DNA of 39,342 bases from NCBI GenBank assembly GCA_002633115.1, contig NWBJ01000061.1:1-39342 (forward strand), read 5' to 3'. Origin of the DNA: Muribaculaceae bacterium Zag1 (GTDB lineage Bacteria; Bacteroidota; Bacteroidia; Bacteroidales; Muribaculaceae). The position numbers and the translations under genes are program-made. The first letter of the stretch is position 1, and the number at the start of each line of letters is the position of its first letter. Under the pieces are notes generated by a model, which was not told the DNA's origin, did not search any database, and saw only the letters and a program-made list of their open reading frames with translations. Shown piece after piece: positions 14,297 to 36,916 of the stretch.

Positions 14297-15430
14297 TCAA
14301 GATTCTTGAGAAGATTGCATCTTCTGGAAAATAGCCAGCCAAGTTGCATCTGCCCTCTCCCAAAACCGCCGTTTCTGCTCGCTGCCAGAAAATAAAATAT
14401 TAAAAACTTCCTGCTGGGTCATATATCCGCTTTTCCTCAACGCCTCGTATGTGGCATCCGGAATGTCTGTCTTATCACCAATCGGATCTTCGGCGCTTAT
14501 AACGAGGTGTGACATCGCTTTGGCAATCTGGTTCTCTGCAAATTCAATATCCATGTCTCCCCGCATTTGTCCGTCAGCAGCTATCTGCTTCTGCAACGAA
14601 TCGAGTGCCTGTACCGGATAAGTTAAATTGCGGCATTCTTCAGAAAACAAGTCTTGCGCATATTTAAAATCTTCCGCATTGTATCGGTGGAATCTCTCTC
14701 CCTGAAAAGCCAAATAAAATTCTACCGCGGGCATATACCGATCATTGGAAAGAAGCAGGCATTGAAGAAAATCCTTATCTGCATTCCACTGCGATGTTCC
14801 AACATGCTTTGCCCAAGACAAACCCACAGCAAAAATATCATTTCCATCCACAATGCTTCCTTCATACAACCCCGACATAAAAAAACTCGGGCCAACAACA
14901 CACGTTACACTTTTCATATAAGTCATGCGACGAGCCCTCTTAACAATTTGCACGGCTTGATCCATGGACATATTACGATACTCCACAGAGGCATCACAAA
15001 GTTCCCCTTCCGTGATCGGCTCGTATTTGTGACTTTCCAATATACGTTCCCGATGAGCAATCAGCTCATCATGAAATTGTTCGTTGTGAAGGCCGGTTCT
15101 CTTCAGATTGTTTTCTTGTAAATATTTCAAATATCCCTCCACGGACATTTCCTTGTCGCGGATAATGGACTCACACTCGGGACAGCGGGTTTCAGGAGTC
15201 CTTGTATAAAACTCCTGTCCGCACCTGGCGCAAATAACGGCTTGAGAAAAACGAGGACGCTTGCGCGTGGTGGTGTTTCGTTTCGAAGAAGCATTCCCGG
15301 AAGAGCTGTCCCCCTGCATCGGACCAGGAGTAACGGGTTCCGGTATCTTCGCTTCTTCCAATTTCGACCCGCAGTTGGTGCAGAACTTTGCACCTTCCCG
15401 ACATTCGGAACCGCAAAACGGACAATACAT
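14297..15430 (-). CDS. Cytosolic double zinc-ribbon helical protein, paralogue of 7330-8496
   Basis: A 377-residue protein with no TM segment. It carries an N-terminal zinc ribbon (CPFC...CTNC), a Ser/Arg-rich basic linker, a second zinc site (CARC...CPEC, about residues 64-88) and a helical domain matching the protein at 7330-8496. Shared landmarks are VEGYL, HDELIAHRERILESHK, NDIFAVG and MRGDM. It has its own TTACAG-type promoter at 15466-15495 and is the first gene of the unit that includes the giant ATPase. Two paralogues on either side of one ATPase suggest that both are adaptors or substrates for it, which is inference. Function unknown. Confidence 0.9.
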   Translation of the reverse strand: MYCPFCGSECREGAKFCTNCGSKLEEAKIPEPVTPGPMQGDSSSGNASSKRNTTTRKRPRFSQAVICARCGQEFYTRTPETRCPECESIIRDKEMSVEGYLKYLQENNLKRTGLHNEQFHDELIAHRERILESHKYEPITEGELCDASVEYRNMSMDQAVQIVKRARRMTYMKSVTCVVGPSFFMSGLYEGSIVDGNDIFAVGLSWAKHVGTSQWNADKDFLQCLLLSNDRYMPAVEFYLAFQGERFHRYNAEDFKYAQDLFSEECRNLTYPVQALDSLQKQIAADGQMRGDMDIEFAENQIAKAMSHLVISAEDPIGDKTDIPDATYEALRKSGYMTQQEVFNILFSGSEQKRRFWERADATWLAIFQKMQSSQES

Positions 15431-15465
15431 ACCTAAAAACCTCTCTTTCTTTCACTCTACAAAAT

Positions 15466-15495
15466 ATTGTAACACAGAAACCAGGGGGACTGTAA
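15466..15495 (-). promoter_or_regulatory. Promoter TTACAG-N18-TACAAT for the zinc-ribbon/ATPase unit
   Basis: On the minus strand TTACAG (15490-15495) lies exactly 18 bases from TACAAT (15466-15471), with TG one base before the -10 box. It is placed 36-65 bases before the start of the 15430 gene. Confidence 0.75.
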
Positions 15496-15513
15496 ATCAA
15501 GCTTTACAAATTT

Positions 15514-16818
15514 TCACTCCTGTGCATCTAACTCTCTGTCATATGACAGTTCCCATACATCCGCATATGTGCCGAGCGGATCGTCAGAAAGGATGCACAT
15601 CAACACAAAGCATTCATATGGATTCGCGATATAAAGCGGACCGAGGAAACAATCTTCCAATATGCGATTCGTAGCGTCAATAAAGTCTCCGTATCGCTGT
15701 TCCGCGCTTGAAAAATCCTCCGTCATCTGTGAGTATACAAAAAAGTTCAGCGTGATCAGATCGAATCGGCTGATCTCTGCCCTGCCGGTCAGGATCTCAT
15801 GGATATGCTGCCTGCTGAAACGTTTTCCAGCAAATTGCGCGTTCAATGCCGATGCCTTCCCGGGGGTCAGGTTGCCATGCCGGTCTGTGGGAATCGCGGA
15901 ACAGATCACGTGCTCGATATCGCTCTCCGTGATGTCCTCCCGTGTATAAGCCGTTTTTGTCGCTCGCTTTTTCTCCAGAAGCTCCTGTTTTTCATAATCA
16001 TAGAGCCGGTCGTTGTCAGATAATCTGCGTTGATATTCGGCGAGTGACTCATACAGGTTTTCTTCCTCCGTAGAGTTATACATCTCCGCGATCCGATTCC
16101 TCGCTTCATCGTACAACTCGTCGAAATGCCGCTTTGCCGTCACGCTTACCTTTGTGCGATTATCCTCGGTCTTCAGCTTTGACAGAAACGCGAGCAGCGC
16201 CGCGTCGTCATGAATCGAGTACATCATGTTCCGGGCTCCGATCGTCTCCTCGCTGTAGAGAAGGCCCATATTCAGAGAATCCACCGGCGTTTCCTGATAG
16301 ATCTGCCAAAGTTTTTCAAACTTCGGAAAGCCATATCCGTTTCGAAAACAGTACCAGCATATGACCTCAAAGGGATCCTTCGCGTTGATTCCCTGCTCCC
16401 GGAGCGCCTTGGTAAGAAACTGATTAACATCCTCCAGGCTCATGGAAAGGCCAAAGCCCAGAAGGAAGACCACTTCCCGTTTTACGGAACGCTGTGTCAG
16501 CCAGTTTTTTGCAAGCGCGGAAACCTTTGCCGTTGTCGGCGAAAAGGAAGGCGGCGTTTGATTGTCCGCAAAAGAGTCACGGATCAACTGCTGATATGTC
16601 TTGACCGGAATATCCTCAAAGGGTTCCGACATCTCCGCTTTTTGATAAATATACCGCCTCAGATAGTCCCCGAACGACAGAGACTGCAAACGTCCCTGCA
16701 GCGTGTGGTAGATCAGATCCGCGTCCTGCTCGCGAAAATAGGTGCTGTCCACTGTATCATAGAGTGCCTCCCAGGCATTTTCGGTAAAATCAAGTTCATT
16801 TAAGTTTTCCATATCCAT
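15514..16818 (-). CDS. Helical protein with two repeated modules, kinase-operon member
   Basis: About 434 residues, without TM or signal. Two regions look like copies of one helical module. The first (about 90-160) reads KVSALAKNWL...REVVFLLGFGLSMSLEDVNQFL...KDPFEVICWYC. The second (about 300-430) reads KASALNAQFAGKRFSRQHIHEILTGRAEISRFDLITLNFFVYSQ and later NPYECFVLMCIL. The (S/K)R..(V/I)..(L)xFxL pattern is loosely like a helix-turn-helix repressor fold, but I would not call DNA binding from it. The start is uncertain: the ATG at 16818 has a weak GAG upstream, while an in-frame GTG at 16869 lies 6 bases after the kinase stop. The close packing indicates co-transcription with the kinase, so it may be a kinase substrate or effector. 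Function unknown. Confidence 0.85.
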   Translation of the reverse strand: MDMENLNELDFTENAWEALYDTVDSTYFREQDADLIYHTLQGRLQSLSFGDYLRRYIYQKAEMSEPFEDIPVKTYQQLIRDSFADNQTPPSFSPTTAKVSALAKNWLTQRSVKREVVFLLGFGLSMSLEDVNQFLTKALREQGINAKDPFEVICWYCFRNGYGFPKFEKLWQIYQETPVDSLNMGLLYSEETIGARNMMYSIHDDAALLAFLSKLKTEDNRTKVSVTAKRHFDELYDEARNRIAEMYNSTEEENLYESLAEYQRRLSDNDRLYDYEKQELLEKKRATKTAYTREDITESDIEHVICSAIPTDRHGNLTPGKASALNAQFAGKRFSRQHIHEILTGRAEISRFDLITLNFFVYSQMTEDFSSAEQRYGDFIDATNRILEDCFLGPLYIANPYECFVLMCILSDDPLGTYADVWELSYDRELDAQE

Positions 16819-16875
16819 ACCGACTCTGTTTTGATCCTTTCTGTAGTATGGCCAATCGCAGTTCCACACATCCCA

Positions 16876-18726
16876 CTAATAAGAGTCAATTATGTTGCTG
16901 TAATCCCAGCCGTTTTCTTCAGCCTTTTCCTCAACTTCCTTGGCCTCCTCGCGATAATTGGAAGCCGTATCATCGTCCACGACCTCATCGGCCAACTCCA
17001 TGTCAACTCGAATCAATTTCTGCAGAATTTGAGGACGCAAAGACGAATCAATGTCTTGTGCCGTATAGAGGGCTCTTCTCTCACTTGCTTTATCTCCCTT
17101 TTCGGCATAAGCATCTGCAATACGCAGGTACGCCAGCGCTTGCAGATCCACATCATCAACCTTCTCAGCGCTACTGATACAATTGTTAAACTCCTCTATT
17201 GCATCATCATATTCTGAACGAGCCTTTGCTATTTCTCCTTTGGCAAAGGAATCATTCCTCTCGTCCAAACCCAGCTTTCGCGCCTCGCCAAGGTACGATT
17301 CAGGCAGTGTATCATAGCCAGCATAGGCCAGCGCGATGGCACAATCGCGGTAATAAAGCGGATCTTCTGTACCAATTTGGAAAAGCTTCCAGTAATATTT
17401 TATCGCTTCAGAATACTCTCCTTCCTCAAAAAGACTGTCCGCATAGAGATAGTAAACATCCGCCATGAGGCTTTGCTTCAGATTAATCTTCGTGTTCTGC
17501 AGGATGTCCTCGTTGATATATTGGATGCATGCGTCATAATCCGGAAGGCCATCTTCTGCCAACTGTTCATGCAACTCCAAAGCATGCTGGTAATAACTTT
17601 CCAGTCGGCTGCCACGAATCCTTTGCACCGCAAACAGCGCCACTACAACACAAGCGATGATGATTACGATAAGCAGGATCCGCCGAATCCGTTTCGTTCT
17701 TTTTTCGGCTGATTTCGATTCTTCCTTTGCGGACAATGCCTGCTCCGGCTCATCCTGTATGGCAGCAGGTTCTTCCACCGGAGCAGCCGCCGCCTGCGTT
17801 TTATGCTTTCCTGCATACCCCTCCTCTTTTATGAGCGGTTGCAGCGAATTTCTCATGGCTTCCGCGGAACGGAATCGTTGACGGGGATCATAGGCGCAGG
17901 CGCAGCGAATCACTCCCGTCATTTCCGGAGAAGCATCACAAGGCGCAGGAAGTGTCTCCCCATCCAGCCGGCGACGAATCGCCCGTTCCCGTTCGTTTGG
18001 CGTAAGAAGCTGCTTATTCGGATCGTTAAAAGGCAGGCGTTTATTATTTAACAGGTAATACAGAACCAACCCAAGCGAATACAGGTCGACCGTCGCATTA
18101 TAAGACGCCCCTTTTTCTACTTCCGGCGCCATGTATGCGCCGGTGCCCTTGCGGGAAAGGTCATATGTCAGGCCTTCCATTTGTTTGGCAATCCCAAAAT
18201 CTCCCAATTTGAAATCGCCAAACTCATTGACAAAGATGTTGGCCGGTTTGATGTCACGGTGAATGATATTCTTTTTTTCGCAAACCTCCAATGCGGAACA
18301 GATATCGCAACCGATCTTTGCCACTTCCGTTTCCGTCATTGTCTTGTCTGAAATATACGTTGCAAGCGGGGTGAGCAATTCCATTCGGATCGAAATATCC
18401 CATCCAATCTCTTCCGTTCGCTCCACGACTTTATAGTCTTCGACACTGACGATGTTCGGGACTCCTTTGAGTTGAACCATCAGCTTGACCTCGTTTACAA
18501 AAGAGTTCACGATCTGCCGCATATAGGTCTTGGAGGCATCATAGTCCATCCCGTCCGTGCGAAGGGATTCCAGTTCCGCCTCATCCTGCGGAATGGAGAC
18601 CACCTTGATCGCAGAGCGGCTTTCTACCCCGTAGTCATCGGTTCGTACCGCCTCATATACAGTTCCGTAAGCGCCTCGTCCAATCCGTTTTACAAACTCC
18701 CATTCCGGCCAGACACAGCGCGGCAT
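16876..18726 (-). CDS. Transmembrane Ser/Thr protein kinase with external TPR-like repeats
   Basis: About 616 residues; positions below count from the in-frame GTG at 18738. All Hanks-type kinase elements are present: glycine loop IGRGAYGTVYEA (19-30), lysine in AIKVV (45), HRDIKPAN (160-167), DFG (180-182), an APE-type MAPE (203-206) and a conserved Arg in DPRQRF. A Pro/Glu/Ala-rich linker leads to one TM helix (about 352-372). Outside are helical repeats resembling TPRs (YLYADSLFEEGEYSEAIKYY, LAYLRIADAYAEKG) instead of the PASTA domains of PknB/PrkC kinases. The ATG at 18726 has GGGG six bases upstream. It is followed by the helical gene (57 bases) and preceded by the PP2C phosphatase gene, its likely antagonist. 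It should autophosphorylate and act on neighbours; substrates are unknown. Confidence 0.94.
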   Translation of the reverse strand: MPRCVWPEWEFVKRIGRGAYGTVYEAVRTDDYGVESRSAIKVVSIPQDEAELESLRTDGMDYDASKTYMRQIVNSFVNEVKLMVQLKGVPNIVSVEDYKVVERTEEIGWDISIRMELLTPLATYISDKTMTETEVAKIGCDICSALEVCEKKNIIHRDIKPANIFVNEFGDFKLGDFGIAKQMEGLTYDLSRKGTGAYMAPEVEKGASYNATVDLYSLGLVLYYLLNNKRLPFNDPNKQLLTPNERERAIRRRLDGETLPAPCDASPEMTGVIRCACAYDPRQRFRSAEAMRNSLQPLIKEEGYAGKHKTQAAAAPVEEPAAIQDEPEQALSAKEESKSAEKRTKRIRRILLIVIIIACVVVALFAVQRIRGSRLESYYQHALELHEQLAEDGLPDYDACIQYINEDILQNTKINLKQSLMADVYYLYADSLFEEGEYSEAIKYYWKLFQIGTEDPLYYRDCAIALAYAGYDTLPESYLGEARKLGLDERNDSFAKGEIAKARSEYDDAIEEFNNCISSAEKVDDVDLQALAYLRIADAYAEKGDKASERRALYTAQDIDSSLRPQILQKLIRVDMELADEVVDDDTASNYREEAKEVEEKAEENGWDYSNIIDSY

Positions 18727-18786
18727 GTCATTCCCCACAACTTTTTGTTCCCTTATCTCCTACCTTATCGCAGCATACAAACTTTT

Positions 18787-19629
18787 TTAAGCGGCTTTTC
18801 CTGGCACAATCTGACACAAAATAATTGTAATATTGTCTTTCCCGCCATTTTCGAGAGCCCGCGCCAATAATTGCTGCGCAGCCTCCGAAAGGGCTTCCTC
18901 AACGAGTTTTACTCTGTCTTCACAGAAATCCCGGACGCTCTCCAAAATTTCCGCAATCTCCTCTTCTGTTACCATATCGGTCAGTCCGTCTGAACAGATT
19001 AGATACACATCCCCTCGGTGAAAATGCCGACTAGCCGTATACGGCTCGATCTGCATTTCGATTGGTGGTATTCCCAGATACTGGGACAACGGTGCTTTAT
19101 ACCCATAGGGTGCAATGGACAAATGGTCCTCCGATATCTGTCGCATTCCTTCTTCCGTGGAAACAAAGATCTTGCTGTCTCCAATGTTGCAGAGGGAAAT
19201 ACCTTCCGGATCAAAAGCAAGCATCGCGGCTGTCGTTCCCATGTTCTGTACTCCGTTACGATCGGCATAGCAACAGATCCCTGCATTAGCCTGTCTGCAA
19301 AACTCAAGGAGAGATTCCTCCCGTTCTTTTCCCAACGCAGTCCCAGCCGCCTTTTTTGCCGCCAAAAGTGCGGCTTCTTCACCGCACTCTTCCCCGCCCA
19401 TTCCGTCAAACACGCCGAGCAGAGACGGAGCATCTGATGTCAGACACCCTATGATTGCACATGGCTCTGTGCTAAAATTACATGTCTGCGATTCGCTGGA
19501 AGAAACGTTGTCCCTGCCGGGCTTGAAATCGACATCCCGATATGTTCCATCACAGATAAAGTTATCTTGATTTGTTTGCCTGCAGCGGCCGATGTGGCTG
19601 ATGCAAGTGTAGGGAATGGTGTAACTCAT
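18787..19629 (-). CDS. PP2C-family Ser/Thr protein phosphatase
   Basis: A 280-residue cytosolic protein with the PP2C metal-binding motifs in order: an R(C)RQTNQDN start near residue 15, FDGMGG, CNIGDSK, LICSDGLTDM and GKDNITIIL near the end. It should be an active Mn/Mg-dependent phosphatase that removes phosphate from Ser/Thr, like Stp/PrpC enzymes. A loop of about 30 residues after the first motif is longer than usual. I chose the ATG at 19629, which has AAGGAAG with good spacing; an in-frame ATG at 19677 has none. It lies directly before the kinase gene and follows a zinc-ribbon membrane protein gene by 50 bases, within one operon. Confidence 0.95.
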   Translation of the reverse strand: MSYTIPYTCISHIGRCRQTNQDNFICDGTYRDVDFKPGRDNVSSSESQTCNFSTEPCAIIGCLTSDAPSLLGVFDGMGGEECGEEAALLAAKKAAGTALGKEREESLLEFCRQANAGICCYADRNGVQNMGTTAAMLAFDPEGISLCNIGDSKIFVSTEEGMRQISEDHLSIAPYGYKAPLSQYLGIPPIEMQIEPYTASRHFHRGDVYLICSDGLTDMVTEEEIAEILESVRDFCEDRVKLVEEALSEAAQQLLARALENGGKDNITIILCQIVPGKAA

Positions 19630-19679
19630 ATTGTTCTTCCTTTTTAAATTTACAGTGTTGTTCCCATTGGGAATCAAAC

Positions 19680-21260
19680 TCAGAGGGGATCTACATATCC
19701 GCTGCGCAGCGCAGTAATCGCATCGCTCGCGCCCGTAGCGAACGGACCCGCATATTCATCATATACATAAGAGTTTCCACTGGGAATGAGCAAATCCAAT
19801 GTACCGTTTCCCGCGCTGAAAACTTTATATTCTCCACTGGTCATCCAGGCAGTCCCCTCCTGTACTTTGCTGTCATACTCTTCTTGGGACACTTCCTGCC
19901 CATTAATCGAAATCTCCGTGTAATCTTCATAGGCCTCCAGCTCTGTGACCAATTCATTCTGCTCATTCAACCGCCAGACCGTTATTGTCATGGCCCCCCA
20001 GGTGAGCGTACTGGAAATATATCCTACCCGCTCAGCAAAACTGACACTGACAATCTCCTGCTCCTTTACCTGAGAATCTTGGATATACAGCAAGAAGTCC
20101 GTCGTCATTCCATGAAGATAGTTTGGCGAAGAGCAGCGCAGCAACTCCGGCACATCATCGTCATTTAGATAAATCAGATAATAATAATAATATTCTTGCG
20201 CTTCTTCTGATGCAATCTGATTGACGTTCTCCGCCTCCGTATCTATCTCCAAAAATTCCCGTTCAATGTAATCTGCATAGAGTTGCTGCCACTCCATATA
20301 AGGTTCCTCATCCAGATCTATATTTCTCACTTCCGCCTGCGGTTCACCTATATCCTCGACCTCGGCAACATCAATCTCGCCATCTCCGGCCGGAACCATA
20401 CCTACGATTCGGCAGCCATAGTCAGAGGATGCATCCGGAGCGATTCGATACTGTATATAATTTATATCATCAGGCTCGCCTCCGGCCCAGTGGACCGTGT
20501 ACTCTGCCATAAGGCTATATAATCCGACTTCGTCCTGCGTGTCGGAGAAGTCCACAATAGAGACATCCACTCCCTCGTTAATATAATCTCCCGCTCTGAC
20601 ATAAAACTTTCCGGAATCATCCTCCAGGACCATATCATTCACTTGGTCCGCATACTCTGGGAAATCATCCAGGCTGTACTCCTCACCGAACAGATTCCGA
20701 AGATATTTTTCATAGTATGATGTCGACAAAAGCACATAGGGGCGTATACCCTCTTTCTGTTCCGTGCTCAACTCATTGTATTCATCCGAACTATAAAAAG
20801 TGCCGTCCCGATAGTAAACGGATTGTCTGGTTGATGCCCCCCAATCCTCCCGCAGCGCCATTGCCGCAACAATATAAGCTTCGGGCGCATCAATCGTTTC
20901 ATAGTCCGACAGATTAACCGTGTCGTCACCGATATAGGAAGCATAATACGACCTTATCATGCTATCTGTCCAATACCGAAAGGTCTCGAGAAGGGCTTCC
21001 ACTTGCTCCTCAGACGGTCTTACTTCCTCGTAAGCCTCCTCATCCTCATAAGACGTATCATCTACCGCACGATTACGGGACGGCTGTTCCCGTATTCCCA
21101 AACTGACAAAAACGGAAACCACTACAGCAGCCGCACAGACAATGATCACCAAAAGAATCTTCCACCACTGGTCTCCCTTGGTCGCGTTAATCTTCGCCCC
21201 GCAACTACCGCAGAACTTTGCGTTGTTCACTAATTTTTTTCCACAATTCGGACAGTACAT
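19680..21260 (-). CDS. Zinc ribbon - TM - ectodomain protein (kinase operon)
   Basis: 526 residues. The cytosolic N-terminus is a zinc ribbon (CPNC...CGSC, residues 3-21), followed by one TM helix (about 33-55, WWKILLVIIVCAAAVVV...) and a large acidic outside region. The middle ectodomain (about residues 85-300) is shared with the 437-residue protein of the same operon; both contain (V/D)(D)VSIVD(F/I)SDT, a Y.V(H)(W/Y)..G..DDI.Y.QYR segment and VGMVPAG(D/H)GEI. The last part (about 315-526) is unique and includes a YYLIYLNDDDVPELLR segment like the acidic L.D.D..PELL motif seen in many secreted Clostridial proteins, possibly binding calcium. There is no signal peptide apart from the TM helix. 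The ligand is unknown. The topology resembles TcaA-like proteins, in which a zinc ribbon precedes the membrane helix. Confidence 0.92.
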   Translation of the reverse strand: MYCPNCGKKLVNNAKFCGSCGAKINATKGDQWWKILLVIIVCAAAVVVSVFVSLGIREQPSRNRAVDDTSYEDEEAYEEVRPSEEQVEALLETFRYWTDSMIRSYYASYIGDDTVNLSDYETIDAPEAYIVAAMALREDWGASTRQSVYYRDGTFYSSDEYNELSTEQKEGIRPYVLLSTSYYEKYLRNLFGEEYSLDDFPEYADQVNDMVLEDDSGKFYVRAGDYINEGVDVSIVDFSDTQDEVGLYSLMAEYTVHWAGGEPDDINYIQYRIAPDASSDYGCRIVGMVPAGDGEIDVAEVEDIGEPQAEVRNIDLDEEPYMEWQQLYADYIEREFLEIDTEAENVNQIASEEAQEYYYYYLIYLNDDDVPELLRCSSPNYLHGMTTDFLLYIQDSQVKEQEIVSVSFAERVGYISSTLTWGAMTITVWRLNEQNELVTELEAYEDYTEISINGQEVSQEEYDSKVQEGTAWMTSGEYKVFSAGNGTLDLLIPSGNSYVYDEYAGPFATGASDAITALRSGYVDPL

Positions 21261-21280: not shown

Positions 21281-22306
21281 TCATGATACTTTGCGTCCGT
21301 ATATTTCTATATCGCTGATACATGTGTCACTATAGTCGCTTCCGCGAACCGCATCATCGATCACAACCTGAATGCGGTCTGTTATCACCTCTCCATCTAT
21401 TGGAACGGTTTCTTTTTCCCCCATAGACGGGTCACTGTCTACAGTTGATACTACGGAAGAGCCATCTGAAAAAGAAAACCTGAGCTCTGTCGGATACCCG
21501 TTTTTTGCAAGAATATCGTCATTTTTCTGGTAACCTGGGTACCACACAATTTCGTCTATCTCATATTCTCCATTCAAAGTAATGGTAATCGTTTCACCTA
21601 TTCCAACTCCTTCTTTATCGCCCTCCACATATGCCGTGGTCAGATCGTTGTCAAACAGATTATATGGACTGTATGAATTCCCATCCGCATCTTCTAATTG
21701 AGAAGATGCCGTAACAGAAACGCTTGTGATTTTTTCAATTTCATCGGAATCAGATTCATCTGTGGAATTTTCACTTTCATCGGAAGCATCGTCATCTGTG
21801 GTGTTTTCACCTTCATCGGAAGCAGATTCATCTGTGGTATTTTCACTTTCATCGGAAGCAGTGTCATCTGTGATGTTTTCACTTTCATCGGAAGCATCGT
21901 CTTCTGTGGTGTTGTCACTTTCACCGAAAGCATCGTCTTCTGTGGTGTTGTCACTTTCACCGGAAGCAGATTCATCGCTTGCCCCTTCCTCGGCATCAGA
22001 AAGGACTTCTCCATTCTGATTCAGATTGATCCTGCCAGTTGCGTTGGCCCAAAAAACAATAGAAATAATCACAGCCGCGACCGCAACCGCAACAACCACA
22101 TAAAACCACCATTTGGGACGGTTTGATTTTGGAGTTTTTATGCCGTCTGAAAACTGGAAATCATCCGAATCGGGCGATACGGCGCCATTGTCCCGGGAGT
22201 CCTGCGTCTCTTCCTGTTGCTCTTCCATCAGCGCAACCGACGCTCCGCATTTCGGGCAAAACGAACTGCCGTCTTTAATCTCGTTTCCGCAATTTTCACA
22301 ATACAC
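21281..22306 (-). CDS. Zinc ribbon - TM - repeat stalk - discoidin-like glycan-binding protein
   Basis: 341 residues. A zinc ribbon (CENC...CPKC) is followed by a linker, one TM helix (about 70-90) and a Ser/Asp/Glu/Thr stalk of 12-residue repeats (ASDESENTTDDx). The C-terminal domain of about 150 residues has YSPYNLFDNDLTTAYVEG, GVGIGETITI and a closing SDIEIYG, the hallmark of the discoidin-like NADase-type glycan-binding domain found in many bacterial zinc-ribbon membrane proteins. It probably binds carbohydrate at the cell surface (family knowledge, not shown here). I chose the GTG at 22306 with GGGAGAG seven bases before it; a TTG at 22312 is too close to that site. It lies 20 bases upstream of the next zinc-ribbon gene. 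Confidence 0.92.
   Translation of the reverse strand: MYCENCGNEIKDGSSFCPKCGASVALMEEQQEETQDSRDNGAVSPDSDDFQFSDGIKTPKSNRPKWWFYVVVAVAVAAVIISIVFWANATGRINLNQNGEVLSDAEEGASDESASGESDNTTEDDAFGESDNTTEDDASDESENITDDTASDESENTTDESASDEGENTTDDDASDESENSTDESDSDEIEKITSVSVTASSQLEDADGNSYSPYNLFDNDLTTAYVEGDKEGVGIGETITITLNGEYEIDEIVWYPGYQKNDDILAKNGYPTELRFSFSDGSSVVSTVDSDPSMGEKETVPIDGEVITDRIQVVIDDAVRGSDYSDTCISDIEIYGRKVS
21735..21985 (-). repeat. 36-bp coding tandem repeats (12-residue acidic stalk)
   Basis: About six imperfect copies of a 36-base unit encode AS(D/G)ES(D/E)NTT(E/D)(D/E)(D/S). Copy number is likely to vary by slippage, which would change stalk length. Confidence 0.85.
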
Positions 22307-22365
22307 CGTCAATCTCTCCCTTCCTCGCTTAAATCTTTTCCCCGAAAGTATCCCCCTCTGTTGGA

Positions 22366-28561: not shown

Positions 28562-29758
28562 TCAAAACTCTCCTATATTCTGATATCCCATCTCCATGTC
28601 GTAATCATTGAGCTTGTCCAGATTTTTCCACTCAAGCTTAGTGATTAAACTCATATCAAAATCATCCTCATCTGCCGTGCCGGTATACCAGTCCTTTTGA
28701 GAGAAATATGCATTTAGATTCTCGTCCTCATATATCCGCCCGTGTCTTGCAAAGATCTCGTCGCGCGCAAGCCGCGACTCTTCTTTGGAAAGTCCCTCCA
28801 AATCAGCATCATCCAACTCCACATCGCTACTATTCGGGAAGATATAATCCGCTGTGTACTCGTCATATGACATGGTACTAATATAGACATCGATGGGTAC
28901 TTTCAAAACGTCGGAACCGGAAGGGAGCAGTTCTCCAGCATTAACCAGAAGCACGATTTCTCCTCCCTCCACGATAAAGCTAAGCTCACGTCCTTCATCC
29001 TCATATTCGACATCATTCAAGGTAAGGGAATCAATCTGCGCTTCGGTTCCGTCAAGATATCCCTTCGATTGATCGAGACGAAGCGCGTCCTGCATTTTCT
29101 CCAACACCTCCGCATCACTCTCGTCTGTCAAGTCGGTAATCCGCGCCGGATCTTCACTTCCCGTACGATACGTCAGGCCATACACATAGGAAGGAGCAGC
29201 CGCTGAACTTTCATCCGAGACTTCATACAGAGTACTCAAAACACCGTTTTTATCATATACCGTCTCCGTTGCCACCTGTGTCTCTATGACAGGATCCTCG
29301 TAGATGTCAGGCTCAATCTGTTCATAAACCTCTTCCGGCATATCGCCCTCCGAAATCTCCGTTATCTCTTCCTCCTCTTCTTCCTCTTCCGCTTCCTCTT
29401 CCTCCTGTTCCTGGACGGAAGTTACTCCATTTATTTCCGTCTCAACATCTTCTCCCGTTGCATTCTCCGGTTCCACTATCTCCTCCGTCGCCTCATAGGA
29501 ATCCTCTCTATTGCCTGGCCAATGCAATACATCCGTTAAGAAAAGAATTGCCACAACGGCAGCAGCCACCACAATAATGATGACAATAATGTAAATTCTG
29601 TTTCGATTTCCTCCCCCATTGCCAGAACTGCCGGAAGGATCCGAATCCATCGGCTGGTTCGGTTCGGAAAAACCAGGGTTTTCTTTTATGAGCTGGCCAC
29701 ACCCGGAACAGTATGCCGCAGAATCATCATTCTTTTTTCCACAATATGGACAATACAT
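28562..29758 (-). CDS. Zinc ribbon - TM - acidic stalk - YARHG-domain protein
   Basis: 398 residues. A zinc ribbon (CPYC...CSGC, residues 3-21), a Ser/Gly/Asn linker, one TM helix (about 53-77) and a highly acidic stalk with a run of nine Glu (about 110-150) are followed by a beta-rich ectodomain and a C-terminal YARHG domain (ARDEIFARHGRIY...YFSQKDWYTG). The C-terminal domain is related to that of the 431-residue protein at 23866-25161, but the rest of the ectodomain is different. The start MYCPYCGKK has GAGGTAACG upstream. It is a single-gene unit, with the TTACAG-type promoter at 29810-29839 and a terminator 41 bases after its stop, divergent from the lipoprotein gene at 29999. Confidence 0.93.
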   Translation of the reverse strand: MYCPYCGKKNDDSAAYCSGCGQLIKENPGFSEPNQPMDSDPSGSSGNGGGNRNRIYIIVIIIVVAAAVVAILFLTDVLHWPGNREDSYEATEEIVEPENATGEDVETEINGVTSVQEQEEEEAEEEEEEEEITEISEGDMPEEVYEQIEPDIYEDPVIETQVATETVYDKNGVLSTLYEVSDESSAAAPSYVYGLTYRTGSEDPARITDLTDESDAEVLEKMQDALRLDQSKGYLDGTEAQIDSLTLNDVEYEDEGRELSFIVEGGEIVLLVNAGELLPSGSDVLKVPIDVYISTMSYDEYTADYIFPNSSDVELDDADLEGLSKEESRLARDEIFARHGRIYEDENLNAYFSQKDWYTGTADEDDFDMSLITKLEWKNLDKLNDYDMEMGYQNIGEF

Positions 29759-29936: not shown

Positions 29937-29966
29937 TTACAGCCTCCTTTTTTGCGGTGATAGGAT
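29937..29966 (+). promoter_or_regulatory. Promoter TTACAG-N18-TAGGAT for the lipoprotein operon
   Basis: TTACAG (29937-29942) is followed after exactly 18 bases by TAGGAT (29961-29966), with TG one base before. It diverges from the 29810-29839 promoter, the two -35 boxes being 97 bases apart. The downstream flank TTACAGCCTCC is repeated at 32197. Confidence 0.65.
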
Positions 29967-29998
29967 ATATAAAAACGATAACAGGAAGGAGAAACATT

Positions 29999-30676
29999 AT
30001 GAAAAAGATTGTAGCATTTGCATTGATGGGTATTTTAATAGTCAGCATGTCTGGCTGCAGACACAGCAGCAAGCTCTCCTCGTTGGTAGAAAAATCAGCA
30101 ACAGAAACGGCTGATTCCGGAATCGACACATCTGAAAGTGTTGAAACAGAAACCGATCGGGCTAATATGGAGGAATCTAACAACGAAGAGGCGGCAGAGA
30201 CGACTGACGAAGAGTCAAGCGAAGAGATTAACACAGACGATGTCACAGATCAGGCTGATGACGATGGAACCTTTGATATTCAAGTGACCATACCAGATAA
30301 TATCCGTTCGCAACTTTCCGGGGATGAAACATTTATCATCTCATACGAAAGCGATGATTTTGATGGAGAAGTGCGTACCGGTACGTTGTCGGTAAATGCG
30401 CTTGAATATGAAAACGCACAGACGGTAACTATGGAAGAGGGATTTTACTTTGTTACCGAAATCACTTGTTTGAATGATACCAACAGCGTGATTTATGATG
30501 CCGGATATTCATGCAGCGATTTATTTGTTTCATCAAATGATGAAATTGATCGCACCGCATTAAATATCGCGATCGGATGGGAGGCAATGAAGGCTATCAT
30601 AGATGAGGAAGGAGCCTCCGTGGCAGTAAACTATAACCCGCCGGAAATGCCAACAGGGCCCTATATAATAGGATAA
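29999..30676 (+). CDS. Small acidic lipoprotein
   Basis: 225 residues. A signal sequence MKKIVAFALMGILIVSMSGC ends in a lipobox-like SMSGC, so Cys20 is probably lipidated and the protein held on the outer face of the membrane. Residues 25-95 are a low-complexity Thr/Ser/Glu/Asp stalk (many ET and EES pairs). The remaining 130 residues form a beta-rich domain (IQVTIPDNIRSQLSGDETFIISYESDDFDG) that resembles no family I can name. The ATG at 29999 has AGGAAGGAG seven bases before it. The next lipoprotein gene follows after 12 bases, forming an operon. Confidence 0.9.
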   Translation: MKKIVAFALMGILIVSMSGCRHSSKLSSLVEKSATETADSGIDTSESVETETDRANMEESNNEEAAETTDEESSEEINTDDVTDQADDDGTFDIQVTIPDNIRSQLSGDETFIISYESDDFDGEVRTGTLSVNALEYENAQTVTMEEGFYFVTEITCLNDTNSVIYDAGYSCSDLFVSSNDEIDRTALNIAIGWEAMKAIIDEEGASVAVNYNPPEMPTGPYIIG

Positions 30677-30688: not shown

Positions 30689-32164
30689 ATGAAAAAGAAC
30701 AAATGGATCTCAATCATTCCCCTATTCCTCTTTTGTATCTGTTTGTTGTCCGGCTGCAAAGAAAAAACACTAATTTCCCTTGAAGACTTCCAAACTATAT
30801 TGGAAAACCATGGTTGCACAATTGAGGGCGATATTATTATTGTAGATGAGGAGGAAGGACGGGCCGTTTATACAAATGGGACAAAATTTTCTTTTTACGA
30901 TATAACATATTGTGAATTTGAAAAGGAACAGTCTTGCCAAGAATTTTATGCGCAATGTGTTGAGGATATGAAAGAAACCTGTAATTCGTTCACAGAAAAC
31001 AGCAAGGACCAATGCTATGGAAGTGATGATACGCAGTATCATTTTATATCAAAAGCTGGTAATACATGCATCTGCGCCGACACCGATTTAGATTTTCAAG
31101 AGGAAGTAATTGAAATCCTAGAAGAATTACAGGTGGCGGATCCGAATGATGCCCCGGCAGAAGAAGAATCTGCGGAAGATGCCGCCACAACCAACTGGGT
31201 CACTGCGACGCAAACCGAATACGATAATTCGGATGTGACAAGTTATAAAGAATTTTCCTATGATGACGAACATCGTTTGGTATCAACCATTCAATATGAC
31301 GTACCCGGTGGCACTGTTACAAAAACGTGGCTTTATACCTACGACGAAAACGATAATATAACGTTGGAGGTTGTTATGGATTCGAACGGATCCGAGGAGC
31401 GTACAGAATATACCTACGATGAAAATGGCAATATAATATCCGAGGCCAATAAAAATTCCGACGAGGATAGTTTTACCCAATATAACTATGATGAAAACAA
31501 CAACATGACAGAGGAAGTCCATTCCAGTTCGGGTGAATTCTCGTATCTTATCGAATATACTTATGACGACAACAACAATTTAATATTGGCGAAACATCCA
31601 TCTTCGGACGAATTTTTCGACTATTATTCTGAATACACTTACGACGAAAACGGCAATTTGACATTAGAAGTTGATACATATTCAGACGACCGCGAAGGGT
31701 ATTCCGAATATACTTACGATAAGAACGGCAATATGACTTCGGAAGTTCATGTGGATTGGGATGGTGCCGCGATTAAATCCGAATATACCTATGACGAGAA
31801 CGGTAATAAAACCATGACGGTTTGTTGGAATCCGATCGGAGAAAGTTATACCGAATATTATTTTTACGACAAAAACGGGAATAAGATAGCGGACGCTAAA
31901 GCATTCGATGTGAGCATCAAACTGCTTCGCAACAAATATACTTATGAATCCTATGAAGCACCTGCTGCAGTGGAAGAAACTGCAACTAATATAGAAAGCT
32001 TAGAACCAGAAGGCATTGAGGCCCACAAAGAAGAGGTCTATCAAGACGGATCAGATTTTTCTCAAACTAAGGTATCCGAGACAGAATCGGAAACGAAGGG
32101 TGAATTTTTTGTTCAAAAATTTCTGACCGGTATCGTTACGAATTTATTGAAACATGCAAAATAA
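30689..32164 (+). CDS. Lipoprotein with short YD (RHS-like) repeats
   Basis: 491 residues. The signal ends in LLSGC (Cys23), a good lipobox. A globular Cys-containing domain (about 30-150, with ISLEDFQTILENHGCTI) is followed by an acidic linker and then about nine YD-type repeats (YTYDENGN(I/L/M)), each about 20-25 residues, from about 180 to 425. A C-terminal part without repeats ends in a weakly hydrophobic helix. YD repeats form beta-barrel shells in large RHS/YD toxins, but here there are too few for a shell and no toxin domain is attached. Membrane-attached, ligand unknown. The ribosome site is AAAGGGAT before ATG. Confidence 0.9.
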   Translation: MKKNKWISIIPLFLFCICLLSGCKEKTLISLEDFQTILENHGCTIEGDIIIVDEEEGRAVYTNGTKFSFYDITYCEFEKEQSCQEFYAQCVEDMKETCNSFTENSKDQCYGSDDTQYHFISKAGNTCICADTDLDFQEEVIEILEELQVADPNDAPAEEESAEDAATTNWVTATQTEYDNSDVTSYKEFSYDDEHRLVSTIQYDVPGGTVTKTWLYTYDENDNITLEVVMDSNGSEERTEYTYDENGNIISEANKNSDEDSFTQYNYDENNNMTEEVHSSSGEFSYLIEYTYDDNNNLILAKHPSSDEFFDYYSEYTYDENGNLTLEVDTYSDDREGYSEYTYDKNGNMTSEVHVDWDGAAIKSEYTYDENGNKTMTVCWNPIGESYTEYYFYDKNGNKIADAKAFDVSIKLLRNKYTYESYEAPAAVEETATNIESLEPEGIEAHKEEVYQDGSDFSQTKVSETESETKGEFFVQKFLTGIVTNLLKHAK

Positions 32165-32285: not shown

Positions 32286-33446
32286 ATGTATTGCAGACAA
32301 TGTGGAAGTGAAATCCCGGAAGGGGCTAAATTCTGTAAGAAGTGCGGCAGCCCTGTCACAAATCCAAAACAAGTGAAGGATTCCGGCGTGCCTGGCTCGC
32401 CAAAAAATGGCGGCGGTCAAAAGCATGCCCTGCGCAATGCCACAATCGCGATCGTAGTATGTGCCGCCGTTGTGGTCGTGCTGCTCGCTGTTTTATTGCC
32501 AAGAGTGAATGGCGAAAGTGGAACGGGCGATGAACCGGTGCCAGCTCAGGACAGCACCACAACCGAACCCACAACAGTCGAAAAAGATACAAAAGAATCG
32601 GAAGAGGAAACTGTCCCGCCTACCTGGGTCCTGACAACAGAAACCAAATACTTAAATTCGGAAGTAGAAGAGTATATAGAATATTCTTATGATAAACAGC
32701 ATCTTTTGGCATCAAAAATCAAGTATAACAAACCTGGCGGCCTCGTTGAAGATACTTGGAAATATTCTTACGACAAAAACGGTAATATGCTATCAGAAAT
32801 TGAAACATTTTCAAGCGGAGGCGAGCATCGTAATGAATATACCTATGACAAAAACGGCAATATGACATCGGAAGTTGAGACATTTGCAAGCGGAGATGAG
32901 TCTCAAACCGAATATACCTACGATGATAACGGCAATTTGACACAAAAGGTTAAAAACGGCAAAACTCTAACCGATTATACCTACGATGATAACGGTAATA
33001 TGACATCGGAAGTTGTTTCGAATTTGGATGGCTTTAGAAGCCGCACCGAATATACTTACGACGAAAACGGCAATTTAACATCGGAAAATTATACGACTGC
33101 ATCCGGATCCGAAAAGCTTACCGAATATACCTATGACGAAAACGGCAATTTGATTTTGATGGTGGAAGGAGGCACGGTCGCAACCGAATATACCTACGAC
33201 GAAAATGGCAATATGATCACGGAAACGGAAAAGAATTATATTAGCCAAGAGTGGTATCAGGAGGTCAGCAACTATGAATATACTTACGATGAGAATGGCA
33301 ACATGACCTCATGGATTCGAAAGGATCTGAATTACGATCTTGTTTATAAATATACCTACGACGAAAACAACAATATGACCTCGAAAATAATTACAAATTC
33401 GGATGGGGACGAACAGCATACCGATTATACCTACGAATACATTTAA
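32286..33446 (+). CDS. Zinc ribbon - TM - YD-repeat protein
   Basis: 386 residues. A zinc ribbon (CRQC...CKKC, residues 3-21), a linker, one TM helix (about 56-76, ATIAIVVCAAVVVVLLAVLL), a Thr/Glu-rich stalk and a YD-repeat ectodomain (about 115-385) of about eleven YTYD(E/K/D)NGN repeats of roughly 20-24 residues. The ectodomain is the same type as that of the 491-residue lipoprotein, but anchored by a TM helix with an inside zinc ribbon. GGGAG lies 7 bases before the ATG. The protein ends within a repeat with no C-terminal domain. It is the intact paralogue of the broken gene at 35944-36916. Confidence 0.93.
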   Translation: MYCRQCGSEIPEGAKFCKKCGSPVTNPKQVKDSGVPGSPKNGGGQKHALRNATIAIVVCAAVVVVLLAVLLPRVNGESGTGDEPVPAQDSTTTEPTTVEKDTKESEEETVPPTWVLTTETKYLNSEVEEYIEYSYDKQHLLASKIKYNKPGGLVEDTWKYSYDKNGNMLSEIETFSSGGEHRNEYTYDKNGNMTSEVETFASGDESQTEYTYDDNGNLTQKVKNGKTLTDYTYDDNGNMTSEVVSNLDGFRSRTEYTYDENGNLTSENYTTASGSEKLTEYTYDENGNLILMVEGGTVATEYTYDENGNMITETEKNYISQEWYQEVSNYEYTYDENGNMTSWIRKDLNYDLVYKYTYDENNNMTSKIITNSDGDEQHTDYTYEYI

Positions 33447-33458: not shown

Positions 33459-34646
33459 ATGTTTTGCAAAAAATGCGGAAATCAGATCCCGGAAAACGCT
33501 CAGTTTTGTCCAAAGTGCGGCGCACCGACTGTTCATTCCGAGTCTGCTTCTACACAACAAAATACGGATGACAGTCCATCTGAGAACTCTGGTTCCCAAA
33601 CATCTCCCGGAACTCCCGGGAAAAAAGGGCTGCCAAGGTATTTGCTCATAATCATTATCGCAGTGGTTGCGGCAGTTGTGATTATTATTGCGGCCGTGGC
33701 GGTTCATTCACATCGGGAAAATTCTATTCCTTCCGATGAAACAACAAAGATAGAGCAGGAGAAAGTTGTAGAGGAGGATGAGGGCAATAATGCTGTCGAG
33801 GAGGACGAGGACAAAGAAGCTGCTAAAGAAACAACAGATGCAGAAACTACGGATGAAGTAACTGCTGAAGAGGCCGAAGCAAACGCACTGAAAGAAAAGG
33901 TAACTATTTCAGACATAACGTTTAAGGAACACGAAACATCAGATCTGGTAATGGGATACGATAACATTGATTATATGGTCGAAATGACGGTAAGCAATGA
34001 CAACGATGTCTCCTGTGATGTTTATCCTTCTTTACAGGCAACAGTTGAGGTAACCAATGGTTATGGCGACAAGAGTAACAAAGAAATACACTTGCTCCGT
34101 TCAAGAAGCAATATGATTAATTCTCCGTATTCAAGGATGTTTACTCGAGACAGGTATAACGCAGACGACAACTACGACGAATACATGATTCCGGTCGGGC
34201 TTGCCCCTCACGAGACGAAGAAGGTCATTTATTACATGGATGGAGCATATACGTCGGCCAACAGCGAGTTTGACTTTGGAACCGATGGTCCGATCACCGA
34301 TGTAAAACTGCTTGACTATACCGTGGAGGAAGCCCCTTATACATATATAAACATTTCGGAAAACCTGAATAACGAGACCGGCGCGATAACGAATACCACC
34401 GGAGAAAGATGGCGCACTGGAGGGGCAAATTATGAACAAGTTACCAACGGCTCCCCAGACTCGTCTTCCAAAACATCCGCGGAACGTTATTCCACTTCTG
34501 GTGAATATGTCGACAGAGATGACGATGTAATCATTACGAATTCAGACATATACGATGCGGAAAACGAGACAGGTATGGTACCGGTTCTATTTTGGTATCA
34601 GGTGGATTCGGCATATTCTGACAACCATGAATCCGCTGGATTTTAA
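33459..34646 (+). CDS. Zinc ribbon - TM - beta-rich ectodomain protein (copy 1)
   Basis: 395 residues. A zinc ribbon (CKKC...CPKC), a Ser/Gly/Pro linker, one TM helix (about 65-88, LLIIIIAVVAAVVIIIAAVAV), an acidic Glu/Asp/Thr stalk (about 98-140) and an ectodomain of about 190 residues that begins VTISDITF and contains VEMTVSNDNDVSCDVYPS and GLAPHETKKVIYYMD. The pattern (a conserved turn, then GLAPHETK) is like Ig-fold domains of DUF4352 type, without certainty. It lies 12 bases after the YD-repeat gene with AAAGGAG as ribosome site, so it is in the same operon. The next gene is a tandem duplicate. Confidence 0.92.
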   Translation: MFCKKCGNQIPENAQFCPKCGAPTVHSESASTQQNTDDSPSENSGSQTSPGTPGKKGLPRYLLIIIIAVVAAVVIIIAAVAVHSHRENSIPSDETTKIEQEKVVEEDEGNNAVEEDEDKEAAKETTDAETTDEVTAEEAEANALKEKVTISDITFKEHETSDLVMGYDNIDYMVEMTVSNDNDVSCDVYPSLQATVEVTNGYGDKSNKEIHLLRSRSNMINSPYSRMFTRDRYNADDNYDEYMIPVGLAPHETKKVIYYMDGAYTSANSEFDFGTDGPITDVKLLDYTVEEAPYTYINISENLNNETGAITNTTGERWRTGGANYEQVTNGSPDSSSKTSAERYSTSGEYVDRDDDVIITNSDIYDAENETGMVPVLFWYQVDSAYSDNHESAGF

Positions 34647-34659
34647 GGGAGAAAAAATC

Positions 34660-35835
34660 ATGTTTTGCAAAAACTGCGGGAATCAGATCCCAGAAAATGC
34701 TCAGTTTTGTCCGAAATGCGGCACCCCTACTGTTCATTCCGATTCTGCTTCTACTCAACAAAATACGGATACCAGTCCAGCTGAGAACTCTGGTTCCCAA
34801 ACATCTCCCGGAACTCCCGGGAAAAAAGGGATGCCAAGGTATCTGCTTATAATCATTATCGCAGTAGTTGCGGCAGTTGTGATCATTATTGTGGCCGTGT
34901 CGGTTCATTCGCATCGGGAAAATTCTACTCCTTCCGAGGAAACAACAAAGGAAGAGCAGAGGGAGGTTGTAGATGAGGATGAGGACAATAACGCTGTCGA
35001 GGGGGACGAGGACAAAGAAAGTGCCAAAGAAATAACAGGTGCGGAAACTAAGGATGAAGTAACTGCTGAAGAGGCCGAAGCAAACGCACTGAAAGAAAAT
35101 GTGACTATTTCAGATATAACGTTTGAAGGGCATGATACTACCGGTGCTTTTGCAGGATATGATAATTATGATTATGTGGTCGAAATGACGGTAAGCAATG
35201 ACAACGACGTTTCTTGTGATGTTTATCCCTCTTTTCAGGCAACGGTTGTATGGACCAACGGTTATGGCGACGAAATCTCCAGACAAATACAGTTGCTTCG
35301 TTCAAGAAGCACAATGATTAATTCTCCTTATTCCAGAATGTTTGGTCGCGACACTCTCAGCGCCGAGGACAATTACGAAGAAACTTTGATCCCGGTCGGG
35401 CTTGCTCCGCACGAGACAAAGAAGGTCGTCTATTACATGGATGAGGCGTATACGACGGACGGCGATTCGTTTGACTTTGGGGCGGATGGTCCAATCACCG
35501 ATTTACAGCTGCTTGACTATACCGTAGAAGAAGCCCCTTATACCTATTTAAACATTTCGGAGTGCCTGGACTATGAGACCGGTGCGATAACAAATACTAG
35601 CGGAGAAAGATGGAATGTTGTAGGGGCAAATTATGAAGAGGTTGTTGACGGAAGCCCGCATTCATCCTCCCATACATCTGTTGGATCACATTCCAGCACG
35701 GGAAACTATGTCGACAGAGATGAGGATGTGACAGTTATAGATTCGGAAATGTATGATAAGGAAAGCCAGACAGGTAAATTACCGGTTCTATTTTGGTATC
35801 AGGTGGATTCGGCATATTCTGACAGCGAAGAATAG
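34660..35835 (+). CDS. Zinc ribbon - TM - beta-rich ectodomain protein (copy 2)
   Basis: 391 residues, colinear with the preceding protein: zinc ribbon CKNC...CPKC, a near-identical linker and TM helix, acidic stalk, and the same ectodomain with VEMTVSNDNDVSCDVYPS and GLAPHETKKVVYYMD. Most differences lie in the stalk and in the middle and end of the ectodomain, which suggests diversification after duplication. I chose the ATG at 34660 after AGGGAG, because the common MFCK(K/N)CGNQIPENAQFCPKCG start aligns there; the ORF stays open upstream to 34555 by overlap with the preceding gene. Spacing to the preceding gene is 13 bases. Confidence 0.93.
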   Translation: MFCKNCGNQIPENAQFCPKCGTPTVHSDSASTQQNTDTSPAENSGSQTSPGTPGKKGMPRYLLIIIIAVVAAVVIIIVAVSVHSHRENSTPSEETTKEEQREVVDEDEDNNAVEGDEDKESAKEITGAETKDEVTAEEAEANALKENVTISDITFEGHDTTGAFAGYDNYDYVVEMTVSNDNDVSCDVYPSFQATVVWTNGYGDEISRQIQLLRSRSTMINSPYSRMFGRDTLSAEDNYEETLIPVGLAPHETKKVVYYMDEAYTTDGDSFDFGADGPITDLQLLDYTVEEAPYTYLNISECLDYETGAITNTSGERWNVVGANYEEVVDGSPHSSSHTSVGSHSSTGNYVDRDEDVTVIDSEMYDKESQTGKLPVLFWYQVDSAYSDSEE

Positions 35836-35869
35836 GTTGCACATTTGAGGAGGATTTCACTATTACAAA

Positions 35870-35880
35870 TGTGGTATGAT
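35870..35880 (+). promoter_or_regulatory. Extended -10 element TGTGGTATGAT, without TTACAG
   Basis: Identical to the -10 region of the 32286 gene, but the -35 position (35851-35856) reads AGGATT, not TTACAG. The following leader (CTTTTCGCAAAAA...AGGGAGACAAAA) is also shared with the 32286 gene. Confidence 0.45.
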
Positions 35881-35943
35881 ATATAAAAAGACAGCAGGAA
35901 TTGATATCCTTCTTTTCGCAAAAAGTATTGTAGGGAGACAAAA

Positions 35944-36916
35944 ATGTATTGCAGAAACTGTGGCAACGAAATCCCAGAGGGGGGCTAAATTCTGTAAGAA
36001 CTGCGGTAACCCTGTCGCGAGCGCAAAGCAGACCACAGACTCCGCTGCGCGGAAGTCCGCGGGAAACGAGAAGGGAAAAAGGCACACTTTACGCAACGCC
36101 ACAATCGCGATCGTGGTATGTGCCGCAGTCGTGATCGTGTTGATTGTTGTCTTATTGCCAAGAGTGAATACAGTAAAAACACCGGGAGAGGGCGACACAA
36201 ACCCCTGGGTCTTAGCAACAGAAACCGTATATAATGACTCGCAAATGGACAGTTATACGGAATATTTTTATAATAACGACCGCTTATTGTCATCAGAAAT
36301 CTGCTACGACGAACCCAATGGCAGCGTTAAAAATATGAAGGATTATACCTACGATAAAAACGGCAATCTGACATTGGAGATTTGTACCTATCCAAGCGGA
36401 AATGAAGAACGTACCGAATATACCTACGACAAGAACAACAATATGACATCAGAAGTTCATAAAGACTCGGAAGGCAACGAAACTAAACGAACAGAATATA
36501 CCTACGATGAAAATGGCAATCTGACATTAGAATTGGAAACGGCTCCGGACGGATCATGGGATCGTTCCGAATTAACCTACGACGAAAACAACTATATGAC
36601 ATTGCTTATAGAATTAGATTCGGACGGGTACGGTGGATATGTCGAATGTACTTATGATGAAAATGGCAATGTAACATCGGCAGATATAACGGACACGGAA
36701 GGGGAATGGTATCGCGACGAATTTGTCTACGACGAAAACGGCAATGTAACAATGGAGTTTAATACCTACTCGGACGGAGAGGTTGATTTTACGGAATACG
36801 TCTACGACTACGATGAGAACGGCAATTTGACATCGGAGGTTATGAAACTTGAGGAAAAAGAATGGCGTACCGAATACACTTATGAGCTCTATGAAACACT
36901 TTCTGAATCACATTAA
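35944..36916 (+). pseudogene. Broken zinc ribbon - TM - YD-repeat gene (+1 frameshift in a G6 run)
   Basis: The ATG at 35944 (after AGGGAGAC) opens MYCRNCGNEIPEGG and meets TAA at once. The paralogue at 32286 reads GAAGGGGCTAAATTC at the same point; here it is GAGGGGGGCTAAATTC, with a run of six G (35979-35984) that is one base too long. Past this point the frame is intact to 36916: AKFCKNC, a linker, TM helix (ATIAIVVCAAVVIVLIVVLL) and about ten YD repeats. Removing one G restores a complete zinc ribbon - TM - YD protein of about 323 residues. It is either a recent pseudogene, a phase-variable gene, or a base-call error. Confidence 0.85.

Follow-up and report, generated by a model that had tools for sequence, protein, structure and literature searches.

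A zinc ribbon-anchored surface protein array beside a Hanks-type kinase and a PP2C phosphatase on a contig of putative Lachnospiraceae-like origin

Introduction

Proteins joining an N-terminal zinc ribbon through a transmembrane (TM) helix to a C-terminal YARHG domain were published in 2012 with the guess that they are transcription factors (Coggill and Bateman 2012, PMC3355149, in its available text). The same architecture occurs in the DNA analysed here, contig NWBJ01000061.1 of assembly GCA_002633115.1, whose whole length (positions 1-39342, 23 genes) is the window. It encodes an array of ribbon-TM-ectodomain proteins next to a Hanks-type Ser/Thr kinase, a PP2C phosphatase, soluble ribbon proteins and a four-module AAA+ ATPase. 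We read this locus, with a probability of roughly 0.4, as a kinase-controlled envelope signalling or surface-assembly module whose ribbon-anchored surface domains would be interchangeable, in a Lachnospiraceae-like bacterium. Below, G000 is the window's assembly and C61 its contig; other G numbers are compared genomes and L numbers compared loci.

Several described systems resemble parts of the locus. The available portion of Coggill and Bateman concerns a ribbon pair in single proteins, whereas the window has one ribbon per protein, many ectodomains on the ribbon-TM base, and a kinase and a phosphatase alongside. In the PknF-Rv1747 pair, as the available parts of the sources describe it, a kinase goes with an FHA-ABC exporter (PMC3908365; FHA domains of Rv1747, PMC5549992); L246 and L283 pair the kinase with an FHA-FHA-ABC-ABC2 protein by Pfam, as do L248 and L280 by phmmer, but the window itself has no FHA-ABC gene. 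Genes typical of the type VIIb secretion system (EssC-like or WXG100) adjoin the kinase family in 15 of 38 loci, yet no core gene of that system lies in the window. The ATPase carries the AAA_lid_6 and Walker A/B features of the CbbX/EccA class and differs in uniting four modules and a 760-aa N-terminal part in one chain. DO-GTPase/GAP1 conflict systems share ribbons, a kinase with PP2C, and membrane location (PMC7159879, in part); their AAA class differs, and no TRAFAC-type GTPase or GAP1 is among the window Pfam matches listed, Pfam's coverage of these being unverified. Titles and abstract openings, mainly open-access and for part of the hits, contained neither a locus joining a ribbon-TM array to a kinase module nor, in the text available, a tested function for ribbon-TM-YARHG proteins. 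On these searches, an array of such diverse ectodomains next to this kinase module is regarded as new, and the underlying Hanks-kinase envelope module as of a known kind.

The ribbon-TM array and its kinase-phosphatase pair

A first-pass annotation made from the letters alone had proposed nine ribbon-TM-ectodomain genes, three soluble ribbon proteins, a TM kinase with a PP2C enzyme, and a giant CbbX-type ATPase, and all of these were recovered where it placed them (Table 1). Eight of the nine array genes are intact, and the one at ~35944 is disrupted by a frameshift in a G run inside the ribbon codons; kinase and phosphatase are adjacent genes with intact catalytic motifs; DZ1, DZ2 and QZR are the soluble proteins, no TM segment being detected in DZ1 or QZR; and the Walker motifs are intact in all four ATPase modules. 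The ATPase and DZ1 fall before position 14297, where the annotated span began, though its text names them. The differing ectodomains were confirmed by Pfam for YARHG, TPR and YD, but not the DUF4352-like fold, for which the ectodomains of 33459-34646 and 34660-35835 gave no Pfam match at E 0.1, nor any other assignment.

All eight intact ribbon-TM proteins, as well as DZ1, DZ2 and the four-ribbon QZR, score above the Pfam Zn_Ribbon_1 cut-off. Each intact ribbon-TM protein has a C-x2-C...C-x2-C pattern from residue 3-8 and a hydrophobic segment beginning at residue 35-69, and since net positive charge is greater on the N-terminal than on the C-terminal side of that segment, the ribbon is predicted to lie inside the cell. 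The 14 over-cut-off ribbons in ~26 kb are far above the Lachnospiraceae-family background of ~0.05 per 20 kb (227 matches at E 1e-4 over ~97 Mb, in 31 of the 32 genomes searched), a background drawn from genomes selected for a related kinase and containing other dense ribbon clusters. The 4.46-Mb assembly has 16 ribbon matches at E 0.1, every one inside the window; this clustering is not counted as evidence because the contig looks foreign to its assembly.

The best-surviving alternative takes the ribbon-TM proteins for membrane-tethered transcription factors, an outside ligand freeing or changing the ribbon so that it reaches DNA while the kinase and PP2C serve a separate pathway; U451 could then be an extra regulator. 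A lone ribbon spans ~23 residues and is the sole cytosolic domain, which on general knowledge is small for sequence-specific DNA binding, and the soluble ribbons, the ribbon-bearing AAA proteins of L067 and L074 and the double-ribbon FHA protein suggest that ribbons here serve protein contacts. We consider tethered transcription factors unlikely.

Kinase loci in Lachnospiraceae

With the window kinase as query, 32 of 230 genomes of the Lachnospiraceae family (the family of G915) match at 1e-32, giving 44 hits on 38 contigs. For all 38 loci the surrounding DNA was read out to 20 kb at most, stopping earlier where a contig ended, genes being labelled by phmmer and pattern and, in selected loci, by Pfam; 20 of the loci carry a PP2C label. 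The type VII loci number 15 (L250, L254, L259, L263, L268, L270 and L274 are examples), 13 by EssC-like or WXG100 genes in the stretch and two, L260 and L272, by WXG100 positions. Of the 77 WXG100 matches in these genomes, 42 lie at most 20 kb from such a kinase against 1.4 expected; by gene proximity, then, type VII secretion in Lachnospiraceae is strongly linked to this Hanks-kinase family.

The 15 type VII loci yielded no ribbon-TM gene. Seven other loci encode an FHA-ABC exporter (L246, L248, L261, L273, L276, L280 and L283), which in L261, L273 and L276 comes in two pieces, an FHA-ABC protein and a distinct membrane protein, and five of these seven hold ribbon-TM genes: L248, L261, L280 and L283 by the script rule, and L276 by hand (a ribbon-TM open reading frame, then a separate YARHG one). 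The stretches of the remaining two, L246 and L273, reach contig ends. Among the 16 other loci only L247 has a ribbon-TM gene, assigned by hand with its ribbon cut by the stretch edge. Fisher's test separates the FHA-ABC loci from the type VII loci (5/7 versus 0/15, p 0.0008) and from the others (versus 1/16, p 0.003), as it does under the strict rule (4/7 versus 0/15, p 0.005; versus 0/16, p 0.004), all on a count that treats loci as independent despite related genomes and on a grouping made after the loci had been seen. In five loci, at least eight ribbon matches among the 150 of 227 listed lie within 10 kb of the kinase, against 1.4 expected (p 9e-5 by match, 0.013 by locus).

The closest parallels reproduce the window in part. 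L246 (G1043) has a U451 relative (62% identity), an FHA-ABC gene, the kinase (51%) and PP2C in the same order as the window. L283 (G1002, on a 3.83-Mb contig) encodes a ribbon-TM-TPR protein, an FHA-ABC and an FHA protein, the kinase and a membrane protein, as well as a ribbon-TM-TPR-WG protein, an 86-aa protein, a ribbon-TM-F5/8C protein and a ribbon-TM-YARHG protein. Its kinase has a TPR ectodomain and 40% identity to the window's, and its 86-aa protein is related to the QZR N-terminus (2.2e-5, partly via its ribbon); judged by similarity and domain content, L283 repeats much of the window's set of kinase, putative ribbon adaptor and ribbon-TM proteins with TPR, F5/8C and YARHG ectodomains. 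Elsewhere the ribbon-TM base carries a C-type lectin ectodomain (L261) or, away from this kinase, transglutaminase-like and BspA-type leucine-rich repeat (LRR) ectodomains (L198) and a beta-lactamase-like one (L196). In the kinase tree the window groups with L246, L247_10 and L248 (support 98/96). The tree holds 43 of 46 kinases, L280_6, L282_7 and L283_7 being omitted because their kinase domains align poorly; these three combine a window-type TPR ectodomain with a divergent kinase domain in which DFN and SPE replace DFG and APE.

Several points beyond the form of the tests weigh against the proposed module. Ribbon-TM genes occur in 6 of 38 kinase loci, only modestly above background. No PP2C was seen in L280 and L283, whose kinases have DFN and SPE instead of DFG and APE (the divergent L283 kinase domain still scores 1.1e-38 with Pfam Pkinase), and our confidence is reduced because these are two of only five FHA-ABC loci that have ribbon-TM genes. 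Five ribbon matches in G1108 sit at C1 383-387 kb while that genome's kinases are at 3.17 Mb; this is one of three dense ribbon clusters without this kinase nearby (the others being G1062:C8 119-123 kb and G1037:C10 140-143 kb), known from ribbon matches only. Finally, among the window proteins neither an FHA nor an ABC-exporter model exceeded its cut-off, and no gene of type VII secretion was seen (for the ATPase, among the best 25 of 59 matches), so the usual output of the kinase is either missing or off the contig.

The locus could also be an island accessory to a type VII system, with the core genes off the contig. Besides the type VII link of the kinase family, the resemblance of the ATPase to EccA1 would fit, as would L196-L197 (G1208), where a kinase (2e-48), six ribbon-TM proteins by pattern (Pfam misses the ribbon in two of five scanned), two WXG100 proteins and an FHA-FtsK protein lie together, the sole locus encountered with a ribbon-TM array and type VII genes by a kinase. 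The window's kinase clade nevertheless stands apart from type VII, with no WXG100 match in G1043, G927 or the kinase contig of G975; ribbon-TM genes were found in 0 of the 15 type VII kinase loci; multi-AAA relatives are absent from the 38 kinase loci, as is any EssC or WXG100 label from 23 ATPase loci of the family; and no EssC-type FtsK or WXG100 is among the 23 window genes, though the contig ends at 39,342 and an off-contig core is possible. Such an island is distinctly unlikely.

Soluble ribbon proteins and U451

Relatives of the QZR N-terminal part are found at L280_8 and L283_10. Those of U451 adjoin kinases in L246 and L277, with a weak relative in L281; another, at 40% identity, is encoded on MT839563.1, a 4.2-kb sequence of faecal origin deposited under the name Bacteriophage sp. 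Among 147, 393 and 395 genomes of G000's family, order and class, searches with U451, the ATPase N-terminal part and a double-ribbon profile gave no full-length relative beyond G000, the last two sets adding brief, weak matches in one and four genomes respectively; these searches were centred on a clade that proved the wrong one. A PDB sequence search returned nothing for the U451 alignment and weak short matches for the DZ alignment (best E 0.12). Structure prediction gave unusably poor models both for the DZ domain, from a two-row alignment (mean predicted local distance difference test score, pLDDT, 46.5), and for U451, from its single sequence (38.2).

TcaA, like the ribbon-TM proteins, has a TM segment. 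The array could be multiplied envelope-stress or antibiotic-tolerance proteins of the TcaA kind, each acting singly in the cell wall: the available text of PMC10611510 describes TcaA as a wall-related ribbon-domain protein tied to the glycopeptide response, and YARHG has been proposed to bind peptidoglycan (PMC3355149, in part). The ribbon-TM proteins, however, have no TcaA-named Pfam match at E 0.1, and the kinase, PP2C and soluble ribbon proteins would go unexplained, which makes a TcaA-like role very unlikely.

The four-module ATPase

The nearest solved relatives of the ATPase are CbbX (7.5e-52) and EccA1 of ESX-1 (5.4e-48); its N-terminal part alone has no Pfam match. In G000's order, 49 of 247 genomes contain a relative of the AAA part (1e-30), and 39 ATPase loci were read from this order, two of them G000's own. 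In G915's family, 21 of 299 genomes contain a relative of the full-length protein (1e-60, 23 hits). Around those 23 hits lie Hsp70 in seven loci, ribbon-TM genes in two, a soluble N-terminal ribbon protein in one, and the kinase in none. The multi-AAA protein adjoins a ~500-aa Hsp70-like protein in L137, L140, L141, L142, L143, L148 and L149.

Two distant loci of G000's order, L067 and L074, bring PP2C together with a four-ribbon protein, a double-ribbon FHA protein (Pfam-tested in L067 only), a multi-AAA protein that itself starts with a ribbon pattern, and a protein resembling the kinase (phmmer 2e-6 and 8e-9) in which kinase motifs are present; they hold every Zn_Ribbon_1 match of their genomes (4/4 and 3/3). 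In L081, ribbon proteins, one of them ribbon-TM by rule, lie beside two AAA proteins, and a further contig scan with the ATPase gave seven loci, none with an N-terminal ribbon pattern. The ATPase is an occasional partner of ribbon loci and occurs mostly without ribbon-TM genes. The first-pass interpretation is supported in part.

A conflict or defence island, in which kinase, phosphatase and chaperone-type ATPase gate effectors, is the least probable alternative: GTPase systems with zinc ribbons, some with HSP70 and some with kinase, PP2C and vWA, are on record (Kaur et al. 2020, PMC7159879, in part), the Hsp70 neighbours would fit, and PADLOC matches the kinase to mad6 and PD-T4-6 and the ATPase to IetA, but those matches are to generic kinase and AAA domains, none of the window matches listed exceeds the cut-off of a vWA, nuclease or TRAFAC-GTPase model, and the kinase matches none of 72,556 plasmids (1e-20).

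Origin of the contig and remaining genes

A Shine-Dalgarno-like motif precedes 13 of the 23 window genes versus 3 of 40 on three other G000 stretches. Across 21 loci from G000's order it stands before 17 of 218 genes, and across the 38 Lachnospiraceae loci before 285 of 416. Tetranucleotide correlations of the window halves with other G000 stretches are 0.30-0.48, against 0.65-0.76 among those stretches, but only 0.54 between the two halves and 0.12-0.21 and 0.43-0.49 with three Clostridia loci; this measure gives no pointer to Lachnospiraceae, and G+C fails to separate the candidates. C61 is probably a Firmicutes contig misbinned into a Bacteroidales assembly, from a host we infer to be Lachnospiraceae-like. 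Horizontal transfer would be an alternative origin; the ribosome-binding signal argues against an old transfer. An MltF-like gene on another G000 stretch scores under its model's cut-off.

The N-terminus of BspA1 is hydrophobic, suggesting secretion, and the BspA2 start overlaps the DZ1 end by 4 bases.

Table 1. Genes of the window, in coordinate order
Feature	Position	Strand	Remarks
331-aa protein	93..1088	-	no family above cut-off; contig edge
BspA1: DUF285/BspA-type and choline-binding-type repeats	1300..4077	-	DUF285 2.2e-72; Choline_bind_4 2.2e-53
BspA2	4241..7333	-	BspA1 architecture
DZ1: two zinc ribbons, unknown ~290-aa domain	7330..8517	-	no TM found
AAA: four CbbX/EccA-class AAA+ modules, AAA_lid_6	8708..14227	-	~760-aa N-terminal part without Pfam match
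DZ2	14297..15430	-	DZ1 paralogue, 28% identity
U451	15514..16869	-	
KIN: Hanks-type Ser/Thr kinase	16876..18738	-	TM at 354-372; TPR ectodomain
PP2C phosphatase	18787..19677	-	
Ribbon-TM-ectodomain	19680..21260	-	
Ribbon-TM, NADase_transloc/F5/8C ectodomain	21281..22312	-	Pfam 1.2e-20; NCBIfam NADase_discoid 4.3e-30
Ribbon-TM, TPR ectodomain	22366..23679	-	Pfam
Ribbon-TM, YARHG ectodomain	23866..25161	-	Pfam
QZR: N-terminal part, four ribbons	25204..26163	-	coiled coil by eye; no TM found
CAP-domain protein with Big_2 and MBG domains	26300..28333	-	hydrophobic N-terminus
Ribbon-TM, YARHG ectodomain	28562..29758	-	Pfam
LP1: lipoprotein-like	29957..30676	+	lipobox by eye
Gene	30689..32164	+	
Ribbon-TM, RHS/YD ectodomain	32286..33446	+	Pfam
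Ribbon-TM-ectodomain	33459..34646	+	
Ribbon-TM-ectodomain	34660..35835	+	
Broken ribbon-TM gene, RHS/YD ectodomain	35944..36916	+	Pfam match over 35876-36916
Choline-binding-type repeat protein	37499..39316	-	contig edge

Proposed mechanism and significance

Hanks kinases and PP2C phosphatases act in opposition, FHA domains recognise phosphothreonine, and CbbX-class ATPases remodel protein complexes. A shared inside part, a varied outside part and a recurrent kinase neighbourhood, partly with PP2C and a small ribbon adaptor, are the features on which the kinase-controlled module is built. The TM kinase, with its TPR ectodomain, and PP2C would set the phosphorylation of membrane-side partners, while the ribbon-TM proteins would be swappable surface parts whose ectodomains, to judge by their domain names, may bind peptidoglycan, glycans or proteins. 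Their like cytosolic ribbons may mark them for docking on one inside apparatus. QZR, DZ1 and DZ2 would make up this apparatus, joined in the window by the four-module ATPase as the part that assembles or dismantles complexes; DZ1 and DZ2 may fill the place that a ribbon-FHA protein has in L067 and L074. Outputs of the module may include the BspA-type surface proteins. Because relatives' kinases adjoin FHA membrane ATPases (EssC-like or FHA-ABC), the usual output is probably phospho-control of an envelope-spanning machine.

A bolder version, tentative and on balance doubtful, takes the ribbon for a common cytosolic plug into multi-ribbon adaptors and a kinase-controlled AAA+ machine, with C-type lectin, F5/8C, YARHG, TPR, WG, YD, LRR, transglutaminase-like and beta-lactamase-like ectodomains as the plug-in parts; these would diversify through gene duplication and ectodomain exchange.

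The recurring locus of kinase, ribbon adaptor and several ribbon-TM proteins with different ectodomains offers a first concrete partner set for ribbon-TM proteins. By bridging ribbon loci, FHA-ABC exporters and type VII secretion, this kinase family makes phospho-control of Lachnospiraceae envelope machines testable.

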